Positions 6,187-14,509 of a stretch of 64,000 bases of DNA are shown here, in pieces; within the stretch, counting starts at the first letter, position 1, and each line of letters opens with the position of its first letter. The notes beneath the pieces were generated by a model that made no database searches, was not told the DNA's origin, and saw only the letters and a program-made list of their open reading frames with translations. Source of the DNA: Anaeramoeba flamelloides (taxonomy: Eukaryota > Metamonada > Anaeramoebidae); assembly GCA_027625915.1 (NCBI GenBank), contig JANTQA010000008.1:4519501-4583500 (forward strand), given 5' to 3'. The translations under genes were made by a program, and so were the position numbers.

Positions 6187-7029
6187 ATGAACTTTGAAAT
6201 TGAAGAATCAGAAGATGATTATGACTATTTTTCAATCTCTCCAATTTCGCCATTAGAAATCCCAGAGCCTGAGATGTATTTTGCTGTTTTCAAAAACCCT
6301 CGCTCTGACATTCGAGAAAAGCAGTCAGCAACTAGTGCATGGAAACAACAAAGCCAAAAGCAATTTGAAGATTTTATTGTTTTGTCGCAATTTTGTGAAC
6401 AACAAGGTAATCCAAAATAAAAAAAACAAAAACCCATACTTTAAAATTTTTTCTTCTTTTCTTCAAAACACAAGACTCTAAACGAATATTCAATTTAAGG
6501 GGATGTATTCTCTGTAAATTTTTCTTGGCTTTGGATCTTTAATAAATAAAAAAAATTGAATCTTTCTAATTTACAAACAGGGCCTGTGCTTTATCAAGTT
6601 TATCCGAATTGGTTTGTCCCACCAATTGATTTAAATGACTTTGTTATTCAAATAATGTCAACGGATTATCAAGGATCGGTATCTGTTGGTTCTCATACAA
6701 CAGATTCAGAGTTTGTAATCAGCTTGGGTAAGCAACAAGTCTTTGCATATGTGCACCATTTTACAATTTTTGATATTTTCGCACGTGGATATACTCGGCA
6801 ATTATGCTTTTCTTATGTGAGTTCAAGCCGTACCAAAATAATGAAAAACCTCCACAGAATACAAAGGGAATTCTTACAAATACTGCTTTTGATAAAAGCA
6901 GGAAATAGATGCTTCTTTTTGATCGAAATTGAAAACAGAATTGCAGATCTTAAATTTACACTGAACGAACTAATAATGAAAATTAAAGAACAAAAAAAGC
7001 ACAACCAACAATCTTCAAAAAAAAAAATG
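6187..7029 (+). CDS. SMCR8-like protein, N-terminal longin exons (exons 1-2)
   Basis: Exon 1 is 6187-6406 and exon 2 is 6581 to about 7029; the 174-bp intron (GTAATC...ACAG) interrupts a Gly codon. Joined, they read ..FEDFIVLSQFCEQQGPVLYQ.. with DLNDFVIQIMSTDYQ, AYVHHFTIFDIFARGY and KIMKNLHRIQREF, ending in ADLKFT. Block by block this follows the longin domain of animal SMCR8 as I remember it (RDFILISEFSEQ-GP, RIMSVDYQ, AYVHHLTLYDLEARG, KIMQQFQEL). SMCR8 forms a complex with C9orf72 and WDR41 acting in autophagy and lysosome signalling, with GAP activity on small GTPases in animals. The start is the first ATG before an acidic leader of about 55 residues. The exon 2 end at ATG|GTGATA is my choice because it is phase 0 like the next exon. 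Close alternative: another longin-DENN family member such as folliculin, which fits less well. Confidence 0.8.
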
Positions 7030-7484
7030 GTGATAACTGATAGATTTGGTGTGAAAATAGTACTAATTTTTTTTTTTTTTTTCTTTTTCTTTTTTCTTTT
7101 TTTTTCAATTTTTTTTTCTTCCTGTTTTTTTGTTTTTTGAAATTACAAAGATCTCTTCGAAAAAAAAAAAAAAAGATCTTTGAAAATACCAACTAACAAC
7201 CATCAAGAAAATTGAGGCGATGTAGTGTCTTTTAAAATGAATATCTTTATTATCAAAAAATCATCTTGTTAACCTTTTTTTTAGTTAAAATTCAGTTATA
7301 AAATAATCACCAATAACCATCTCAAAGATCGGAATTATTTGAATAATCACTTTTTCTTTTTGTGTTTGTGAAATTTTTACGATCTTTTTAATCCCAAATA
7401 TTTAATTGGTTTTGTTCAATCCAAAATAAGAACTTTACAGCATCAAAGAAAATATTATTTTATTTTGGAAAATTACAATAGCCA

Positions 7485-8000
7485 TTTGGGTTAAAAAGTG
7501 AAACAAGGAAAAAAAGTGAAACAAGGAAAAAAAGTTAAAACCGATTTTAATTGGGAACATTAATAGAATCACAGAAACCTGAAAAAGAAAAGTAAAATCA
7601 ATAAAAAGAAGAAACAAATTAATTTCAAATAATAACCCATTATATTATTTTCAATCAAATCAGCAAAAACAATGTGAATCTCCTTTGATTATTGAAATCT
7701 GTGGAGTGGTTTTGGAGATCTCAAAAATAGTAAATTTTTTCAACGAATTTTTAATAACAGATCAATCAAAAACAAAAACCCAATACCAAAAGATAGTAAG
7801 AGAAACTATTATTAGTGTTGAATCCTCCATTTTGTCTTTAATTATTTTTTTTTTCTTTTTTCAATTAGATCTTACTTTTCATTTTCAGGTTTCTGTGATT
7901 CTATTAATGTTCCCAATTAAAAATCGGGTTTAACTTTTTTTCCTTGTTTCACTTTTTTTCCTTGTTTCACTTTTTTTCCCAAATGTCACTTTTAATTTAC
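7485..8000. mobile_element. Foldback element R7
   Basis: The left end carries two tandem copies of AAAAAGTGAAACAAGG and the right end two copies of CCTTGTTTCACTTTTT. Each arm continues with an inverted match through GGGAACATTAATAGAATCAC / GTGATTCTATTAATGTTCCC and AAACCTGAAAA. Arms are about 115-130 bp around a 265-bp centre. Part of the centre and right arm (roughly 7735-7930) recurs at 24440-24680. No coding capacity is seen. Confidence 0.62.
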
Positions 8001-8546
8001 TTTGCAATACTGAAAAAATTTTACAAAAAAAAAATTAAAATTTTGCTAATTTTTCACTTTGAAAACTTCACTTTCAATAAATATTATTGGTTAATAAGAG
8101 ATCTTTGATCAAAAATTATTTTGAAAGATATTTTACAATTTAAGTTGGAAAATCTAATTTTTAATAAAGATTATTTTCAAATTTAATACTGTTAAAATCA
8201 AATCACCCTAATTAAAATTTTATCTCAAAGTTCAATAAGAAAGCTTAATTAAATCTCTAAAAAACATCATTTCTAATTAATTTTGTGAGTATATTTGGGT
8301 TTTTAACGAATAATTAGAGTTGTCAAATATTTGAGAACTTGAAATAAAAATTTTCATTTATTAATTGGAAAATAACAGTAGTAAAAATTTTAAATTTTTT
8401 TTTTTGTGTTAAGAGTTATTTTATTACTATTCGAAAGCATTTTGCATTTAATAAATATCTTTCAAACGGAGAATCAATTATGTTGACTATGGAAAAATTA
8501 ATTATTGATTTATTGTGAAAAAATTATTTTTTTTTTGATTTTTCCG

Positions 8547-12290: not shown

Positions 12291-12750
12291 TCTTATTTTT
12301 CACTTGTCATTAAAAATACCTGAAACTGAAATTCATTCTAAATAAAATAATACCTATTTTTAAACTCTTAAAGGCAACTTCACACATGAATAGGAAAACC
12401 ATAACATCAAAAAATCAAAAAAAGTCAATCTAAAATGCTTATTTAGTTTTGATTTATGAATTTAAGAGTTTTTTTTCAAGCAGTTAAATAGTTAATAAAT
12501 AAAAATAAAAACGGATTATTTTTATTAATCTAACAATATTTAAGAAACAGTCTATAGAAAATACAATTAAAATAATATATTTTATAAAAAATATATTTAT
12601 CGATAAAAAGTAGTTTTATTTTCTTAATTGTATGAAAAAAAAAAAACTCTTACAAAATTTAAATAATAACAATGATTAAATTTTAATTATTTATTTATTA
12701 AATAAAATTCAATTCTTCATCCCTCATTCATTCATTAAATTAATATAAAT

Positions 12751-12869
12751 TCTCTCTCTCTCTCTCTCTCTCTCTCTCTCTCTCTCTCTCTCTCTCTCTC
12801 TCTCTCTCTCTCTCTCTCTCTCTCTCTCTCTCTCTCTCTCTCTCTCTCTCTCTCTCTCTCTCTCTCTCT
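12751..12869 (+). repeat. (TC)n microsatellite forming a polypyrimidine tract
   Basis: About 119 nt of almost pure TC dinucleotide repeat, ending 11 nt before the 3' splice site TTTCATAG at 12880. It therefore sits exactly where a polypyrimidine tract is expected. The opposite strand reads as an artefactual Arg-Glu repeat. Confidence 0.9.
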
Positions 12870-12880
12870 TAATTTCATAG

Positions 12881-14509
12881 GCAAAAGCTATAACACCATT
12901 ATTTTTACAAGAATTAATTATTGAAACTAAAAAGATTCGAAATAGATTACTAACAACATTTTTATTACATGAATATGACATTTTACAAAATTATTTAAAC
13001 ATACCAAAAGAACAAATTTTACAAATGAAAATAAATCAAGAAAAGGAATTAAAATTAAACAAAGAAAATAAAAATAAAAATAAAAATAAAAATAAAAATC
13101 AAGATGAAAGTGATGACGACGAAAGCGATGATGAAGATGATAATGTGTTTAATAATAAAAAAAAGTTAAGAAAAAATAATTTAGATAAAAAGATAGAAAT
13201 TAAAGATTATGAAGAATATTTAAAAAATGATCATTATACATTATATTTATTAAAGCATAATTATCAACCAATATTTTTAAAAAAGATTCACAAGCCTTTC
13301 ACCATTGATCAAAAATTAAGAGATCTTGAAATAATTTGTATTCAAAAAATATTTCGACGAATGGAATATGAAATGCAAAAAATTTATGAAAAGTTAAGTC
13401 TTAACAAAATTCAAATAACCCTAGAAAATAATAATTTCATACAAAATGGTAATAAAAAGAAAATATTATTTAAAATAGGCGGCCGTGATTTGATAGATGT
13501 ATTACCAATAATGAAATATGATTCTAAGACGAAGAAAAATATGAATCATTTTGCAAGCAAAGAAACTGGAAATGAAAATAATAAAGTAATAAAAAATAAA
13601 TTCAAATTAATAAACTCAAATGGGTTTATTAATAATTTTGATAACATAACGATTAATAACAACAGCAGCAGCAGTGACAAAAACAACAAAAATAATCATA
13701 ATAATCATAATGACAATAATAATAATGATAAAAATAAAAATAATGATTCGCAATTGTTTAATGATTTTTTAACAAAGTGTAATTTTAATCAAGACCAATT
13801 TTATCAAATTCTATGGCTATCAAAGGAATCGTTATATTATGGAAAAGATATTCTATTATCTTTTAATCGAGTTCACTGGTGCTTAGAACATTTTGTGTAT
13901 TGTTTATTAATCGGGGAGCCAGTCTTGATTTCTGCAAAGCCAATAAATAGTGAAATAGTGAAATTGATTGTAAATGCCTTTTCATTATTTATTCCGGGAA
14001 ATATCGAAAGGGGGATGGTTGTGTTATGGAAAGAACAAGTACAAAAGGAAAAAAATGCAAGATTTCATGAATTTAACATAATTAAATTGGCAGGAATTTC
14101 AAAAAAATTAAAATTATCCTTGCAATTAAAAAAATTTTTTTCAATTATTGATTTTGAAAGAAAAAAATTTTATTCTCGAAAGCCTTATAAATCAATCGAA
14201 AATGGTATTGTTCAAAAAATAATAGGATTAAAAATTCATTTTGATCAAGAAAAAATTTATATTGCATATTTTTATAAAATTTTATCTGAGATTTCTTTAA
14301 ATTTATTAATATTTTTCTATTCAGAATTATTCCCAGAAAAGGTCAATTTCAAATCAATTTTCAATGATATTCATTTTAGTGAAACTGATCTATCCATCTT
14401 AAAATATTGGTCGTTTTTAATTAAAAAGGAATTTGTAAAAAAAAATAATTCCACGAAACAAATACCATATCAATTTTTTTATAACCCTGAAAAAACTCAT
14501 AGAAAATAA
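12881..14509 (+). CDS. SMCR8-like protein, C-terminal DENN exon
   Basis: An open exon of 542 codons, phase 0 from 12881, TAA at 14507-14509. The first 48 codons precede the first ATG (13025) and are ordinary protein sequence (AKAITPLFLQELIIETKKIR..), so the exon is entered by splicing rather than started at that ATG. Blocks matching animal SMCR8: KPFTIDQKLRDLEIIC (compare FDKKLKTLEELC), FVYCLLIGEPVLIS..LIVNAFSLFIPG (compare AIYSLLSGRTLVVL..LVTALAIFVPS), FSIIDFERKKF (compare SILDLDNKTL) and the terminal ETDLSILKYW. Low-complexity Asn/Lys and acid-rich insertions lie at exon residues about 55-105 and 225-290. This is the DENN half of the gene started at 6187; joined length is about 765 residues against 937 in human. 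Function by family: autophagy and lysosomal small-GTPase regulation. Confidence 0.8.
   Translation, partial: AKAITPLFLQELIIETKKIRNRLLTTFLLHEYDILQNYLNIPKEQILQMKINQEKELKLNKENKNKNKNKNKNQDESDDDESDDEDDNVFNNKKKLRKNNLDKKIEIKDYEEYLKNDHYTLYLLKHNYQPIFLKKIHKPFTIDQKLRDLEIICIQKIFRRMEYEMQKIYEKLSLNKIQITLENNNFIQNGNKKKILFKIGGRDLIDVLPIMKYDSKTKKNMNHFASKETGNENNKVIKNKFKLINSNGFINNFDNITINNNSSSSDKNNKNNHNNHNDNNNNDKNKNNDSQLFNDFLTKCNFNQDQFYQILWLSKESLYYGKDILLSFNRVHWCLEHFVYCLLIGEPVLISAKPINSEIVKLIVNAFSLFIPGNIERGMVVLWKEQVQKEKNARFHEFNIIKLAGISKKLKLSLQLKKFFSIIDFERKKFYSRKPYKSIENGIVQKIIGLKIHFDQEKIYIAYFYKILSEISLNLLIFFYSELFPEKVNFKSIFNDIHFSETDLSILKYWSFLIKKEFVKKNNSTKQIPYQFFYNPEKTHRK

Follow-up and report, generated by a model that had tools for sequence, protein, structure and literature searches.

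In the metamonad Anaeramoeba flamelloides we found an SMCR8-type gene of three exons on the + strand, in which a GT-AG intron of 5,821 nt, filled to about 75% with dispersed repeats, separates the longin from the DENN part. The evidence makes it very probable that this is one gene, encoding a protein of about 775 residues, and that its second intron was present before gene duplication and was later swollen by insertions. SMCR8 is the partner of the ALS-linked protein C9orf72. The gene lies in the window, the whole stretch of 64,000 nt that was analysed (G000:C9:4519501-4583500; G+C content 23%), which is part of a genome of 254 Mb in 76 contigs. Genome searches for the longin part (24 of 24 candidates scored) and for the DENN part (47 of 47 scored) led to the same three loci, the window gene on contig C9 and its sisters on C45 and C34, for which the DENN search gave E values of 1.6e-77 and 2.0e-17, respectively. 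In both sisters the halves lie on a single strand with longin first, and no orphan longin or DENN half was found among the places reached by both searches.

Gene structure and splice junctions

Exon 1 (6187..6406, + strand) encodes the N-terminus, is open from its ATG and matches exon 1 of the C45 sister (E 3.9e-7, 39%). In the splice model it is followed by intron 1 (6407..6580, +; 174 nt, GTAATCCA...ACAG), positioned as a 141-nt intron of the C45 sister. Exon 2 (6581..7059, +) carries the longin domain, intron 2 (7060..12880, +) runs from GTACTAAT to TTTCATAG, and exon 3 (12881..14509, +) contains the DENN part with 542 codons, its coordinates including the stop codon. A GT at 7060, an AG at 12880, where TTTCATAG ends, and phase 0 at both facing exon ends give intron 2 the GT-AG borders and the single reading phase of a spliceosomal intron, and the same GT-AG phase-0 gap lies between the halves of both sister genes. 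The initial annotation had described longin exons and a DENN exon on the same strand, in N- then C-terminal order and with facing phases 0, all of which is present in the sequence. A codon-score scan of the window returned mostly genes already identified.

The DENN boundaries given in that annotation (12881-14509) stand, while the end of the longin exon, which it had placed at 7029, is probably 7059. Two donors were compared: GTGATAAC (7030..7037, +), which yields an intron of 5,851 nt and a protein of 765 residues, and GTACTAAT at 7060, which yields 5,821 nt and 775 residues. At the corresponding place the C45 exon goes on with QIKDKFGVKL before GTAAGTAA, and the window sequence goes on with VITDRFGVKI before GTACTAAT. 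Over these ten codons (7030-7059) six of ten residues are identical, an agreement reached in 40 of 200,000 draws of open pieces taken at random from both introns, and the similarity between window and C45 ends at the GT of 7060. Moreover, the nine other donors placed, which belong to the SMCR8-type genes or to a Ras-like gene located in the window, all start with GTA, as does GTACTAAT but not GTGATAAC. From the sequence, the main donor of intron 2 is thus probably the one at 7060, with exon 2 running to 7059. The shorter values of the initial annotation (5,851 nt, 765 residues) do agree with the deposited ortholog P0001 (765 aa), and since P0001 uses 7030, this site may be an alternative in-frame donor and both donors may be used.

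SMCR8 identity of the two halves

When compared with a structure library, the longin exon alone matched human SMCR8 with an E value of 2.3e-21. Queried alone, the window DENN exon gave no match to SMCR8 in that library up to E 10, and a profile with the sisters was therefore needed for its assignment. Profiles built from the window gene and its two sisters placed human SMCR8 at the top for both the longin half (E 1.7e-31) and the DENN half (E 1.3e-12), followed by next-best matches at 0.39 and 0.011, respectively, which look like chance or low complexity. The initial annotation had proposed an SMCR8-like identity and named a match of the halves to different protein families as its refutation; the comparison was run, and both halves chose SMCR8. 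Over its full length the three-sister profile matched human SMCR8 with E 1.4e-52, and the matched stretches are collinear: longin (2.5e-36), a weak middle (2.4) and DENN (9.2e-10). In addition, R142 in exon 2 of the window protein, invariant across the three sisters, aligns with Arg147 of human SMCR8, a residue reported in the active site of ARF1 (PMC8213707).

A closer relation to folliculin (FLCN) was considered and rejected, as SMCR8 gives the best structure matches and the only clear ones. Pfam names the longin exon only, which passes the cut-off of Folliculin_N (PF11704) narrowly (24.1 against 23.3 bits), and this family takes in relatives of FLCN; of the full-length deposited proteins, P0001 falls below the Folliculin cut-off and P0002 above it. 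FLCN was not among the matches of either half profile up to E 10 in the structure library, which presumably includes FLCN chains. In the protein database, where each search scored the best ~7,990 candidates by shared words and low-complexity words may crowd the list, the joined protein and the three-sister profile matched two deposited A. flamelloides proteins and no others among the candidates scored, and a query with just the longin region brought in one protein from a sponge. This protein (P0003, Halichondria panicea, 1,080 aa) matches both halves of the window protein in pairwise comparison (E 1.8e-29 for longin, 1.7e-12 for DENN) and is itself SMCR8-type by its match to human SMCR8 (E 6.1e-50). 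Judged from sequence comparison, the window gene is of SMCR8 type, longin then DENN. Single-sequence structure prediction of the C45 protein gave a mean pLDDT of 31.6.

Repeats and the growth of intron 2

Dispersed repeats cover 4,384 of the 5,821 nt of intron 2 (75%, union of ranges). As the best 40 candidates were scored in each element search, the copy counts given here are lower bounds. Element A (7482..7985, about 0.45-0.5 kb) has inverted-repeat ends at 7470-7555 and 7913-7998 and is found in at least 39 other places with 81-85% identity (best 40 of 12,941 candidates). It is followed by several shorter dispersed repeats (8078..8724), one of which (8186-8387) also occurs in the C34 sister intron with 76.6% identity, and by element B (8725..9127), composed of foldback units with inverted repeats, whose part at 8730-8948 is widely repeated (at least 39 other places, 79-95%). 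Element C (9400..9935, 0.54 kb) is bounded by 38-nt inverted ends (9400-9437 and 9898-9935) and recurs in at least 39 other places at 87-89% (best 40 of 5,418 candidates). Elements A and C are MITE-like, i.e. short, without transposase, with terminal inverted repeats and many dispersed copies.

Further downstream, an old element D is split into a left (10312..10568, +) and a right part (11180..12317, +) by a young element E (10563..11183, +, ~0.62 kb), both with dispersed copies elsewhere. The right part of D has at least 39 other copies at 75-80% (best 40 of 2,664 candidates) and E at least 27 at 91-98%. At the insertion point all 13 aligned D copies lack E and have their two sides within ~55 nt of each other, compared with 611 nt in the window. 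The flanks of E overlap by ~5 nt on E-less D copies, with no exact target-site duplication visible in seven copies. The dispersed families A-E, with young E inside old D, support the earlier proposal that four or more element types contributed to the growth of intron 2 through nested insertion. Close to the acceptor, a perfect (TC)59.5 run (12751..12869, +) ends 11 nt before exon 3 and acts as an extreme pyrimidine tract of the intron. No Rfam family was found in intron 2 at gathering score. Across the whole window this score is reached only by a tRNA (48650-48735), which lies outside the SMCR8-type gene.

The gap between longin and DENN is 5,821 nt in the window, 7,396 nt in C45 and 2,174 nt in C34 (C34:5965705-5967878), whereas the other introns of these genes measure 174, 141 and 120 nt, respectively, and those of the Ras-like gene in the window 122, 216, 165 and 228 nt; it is a small sample, with seven introns of 120-228 nt set against three long ones. 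The C45 intron consists of dispersed repeat over at least 5,079 of its 7,396 nt (69%), some stretches of it lying outside the search. At the DNA level, the intron of the window gene has nothing in common with that of C45 beyond element D and short foldback units, and with that of C34 it shares a dispersed repeat of 205 nt and a further piece of 21 nt. The 1.1-kb element D is 74.1% identical between the window and C45 copies, which show 73.3-78.1% and 73.1-83.7% identity, respectively, to 13 other copies. Inheritance of D from before the duplication was rejected, as these two copies do not group together in a tree of D copies, in which several supports are low. Since 12 of the 13 other copies had been chosen for matching the window copy well, the sample leans toward that copy; with this leaning, the tree supports the view that D arrived separately in the intron of the window gene and in that of C45. 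On this evidence the ancestral intron grew on more than one occasion, and the long intron of the sisters is enlarged independently in at least one sister gene. The initial annotation had spoken of a striking case of intron bloat, which is unproven, the intron of the C45 sister being even longer; we regard the window gene as a good example, of a fairly ordinary kind, of an intron enlarged by transposons.

Each of the three sisters has a long version of the intron (2,174-7,396 nt), whereas the seven others measured, of which three belong to these genes, have 120-228 nt, and D entered the long intron twice. This could also mean that the length of that intron is held by selection, with length or content used in SMCR8 expression, or that the site attracts insertions. 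We consider this unlikely, since the insertions differ among the sisters and only repeats are common to them, no Rfam family occurs in the intron, the same repeats are abundant elsewhere in the window, and three genes make a small sample.

In the reading that we favour, in which growth was near neutral, intron 2 is most probably a normal GT-AG intron of the spliceosomal kind, in phase 0 and older than the gene duplication, which later grew by repeated insertion of short non-coding inverted-repeat or foldback elements, one within another, and the C45 intron was enlarged largely through other insertions. The ordinary spliceosome would remove intron 2, and because the insertions would sit in removed sequence, the protein would be unaffected as long as the intron ends are recognised.

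One gene in three loci

The proposal of a single gene with a long intron gains from the sister loci and from deposited proteins. The deposited protein of C45 (M0812_19845, 749 aa) is identical to the splice made here across 7,396 nt, and the ortholog P0001, encoded on a different contig of 1,245,853 bases, has the halves joined, with 4 differences from the window in 765 residues. The deposited proteins of the ortholog and of C45 thus imply, at the level of sequence, that intron 2 is removed from the RNA. Window and C45 have a matching phase-0 junction with residues alike on both sides. By alignment, the exon preceding the gap in C34 is shorter and ends earlier, and its junction is therefore less surely the same as that of the window.

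A long, repeat-filled gap and a longin frame that is open as far as 7137, where it could end, would also fit insertions that parted a longin-only from a DENN-only gene, or a trans-joining of two RNAs. Such a split is very unlikely: longin and DENN stand in order on a single strand at each of the three loci found, no lone half turned up among the places found, for two of these loci a deposited protein contains both halves, and the facing ends have a GT and an AG that could serve in splicing and share their phase, with the sister similarity stopping at the GT. An assembly error joining unrelated pieces is hardly credible even in very AT-rich, repeat-rich DNA (23% G+C) that is hard to assemble, since ortholog P0001 carries both halves on another contig with 4/765 differences and two sister genes have the same layout.

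Relation to known systems and significance

As in human SMCR8 (PDB 6lt0, 6v4u, 7mge), the longin part precedes the DENN part, the matched stretches follow the same order, and the ARG motif with the catalytic arginine is conserved. By analogy with the family, from which an arginine-finger GAP role can be inferred, the window protein probably works with C9orf72 as a GTPase-activating protein, offering the conserved longin arginine. The window protein is shorter (775 residues versus 937 in the human structure entry) and, unlike human SMCR8, has low-complexity N/K/D-rich inserts in its DENN part; also unlike the human case, A. flamelloides has three genome copies and a very long intron between the two parts. 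Among animal proteins, the sponge P0003 matches in both halves. With regard to the intron, repeated inverted-repeat elements in protist introns have likewise been described as introner elements of Amoebophrya (PMC7789003), but the window elements sit within one older GT-AG intron and, in contrast to the introners as described there, neither make up intron 2 nor coincide with its ends.

FLCN/SMCR8-like protist sequences are already in print, as Trichomonas intermediates, in a study suggesting that FLCN and SMCR8 split in an early or pre-metazoan ancestor (PMC3570213), and some unicellular relatives of animals are reported to have longer introns than most protists (PMC5560861). The A. flamelloides genome paper describes AT-rich introns, a read-mapping limit of 10,000 nt per intron, and an assembly that exceeds the one of A. 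ignava almost sixfold in size while containing only about double the number of genes (PMC11550330); in the text of that paper available to us, supplements aside, we met no mention of an SMCR8-type gene. A more far-reaching combination, in which separate insertions kept an ancestral intron long in every SMCR8 copy, with other introns at ~150 nt, because its length or content serves expression, and in which a metamonad gene of SMCR8 rather than FLCN type places the SMCR8/FLCN split near the eukaryote root, appears rather unlikely to us.

The window gene and its sisters present a clear case of one inherited intron that was separately enlarged in the copies of a duplicated gene in a unicellular eukaryote; intron 2 of the window gene also shows a young insertion lying within an old one. 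If many such introns exist in A. flamelloides, they may help explain its genome size relative to A. ignava (PMC11550330). Three SMCR8-type genes in a metamonad also bear on how early the C9orf72-SMCR8 module arose and, if the assignment to SMCR8 type and not FLCN type is true, the SMCR8/FLCN split would be earlier than was suggested from the Trichomonas intermediates (PMC3570213).

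Surroundings and second intron of the SMCR8-type gene

Upstream of the SMCR8-type gene, we found a large foldback (window 5022-5887), the arms of which (5022-5285 and 5626-5887) are complementary at 97% over 264 nt and the 3' end of which lies approximately 300 nt before the start codon. On the acceptor side of intron 2, a perfect (TC)59.5 microsatellite occupies positions 12751-12869 and ends 11 nt upstream of exon 3; in the two sister genes, on contigs C45 and C34, the stretches inspected at the acceptors contain no comparable TC run. In the C34 sister, the exon preceding the long gap is devoid of residues corresponding to DRFGVK, which probably belongs to the end of exon 2 of the window's SMCR8-type gene, and an additional small exon within this 2,174-nt gap (L007:6206-8379, L007 being the sister locus) is possible.

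Other features of the window

Element D, the old dispersed repeat of intron 2, has a further copy on the minus strand (42609-43697), sharing 71.8% identity with the intronic one. The same strand carries a Ras-like GTPase gene (40258-41500) with four short introns of 122, 216, 165 and 228 nt, and a tRNA-Thr gene (48649-48736). Furthermore, an open frame at 25579-27246 contains long D/N-rich repeats, and its start, judged by eye from the residues, appears to resemble an ArfGAP zinc finger. This frame and the SMCR8-type gene, encoding a presumed ARF GAP subunit, are found within one window.
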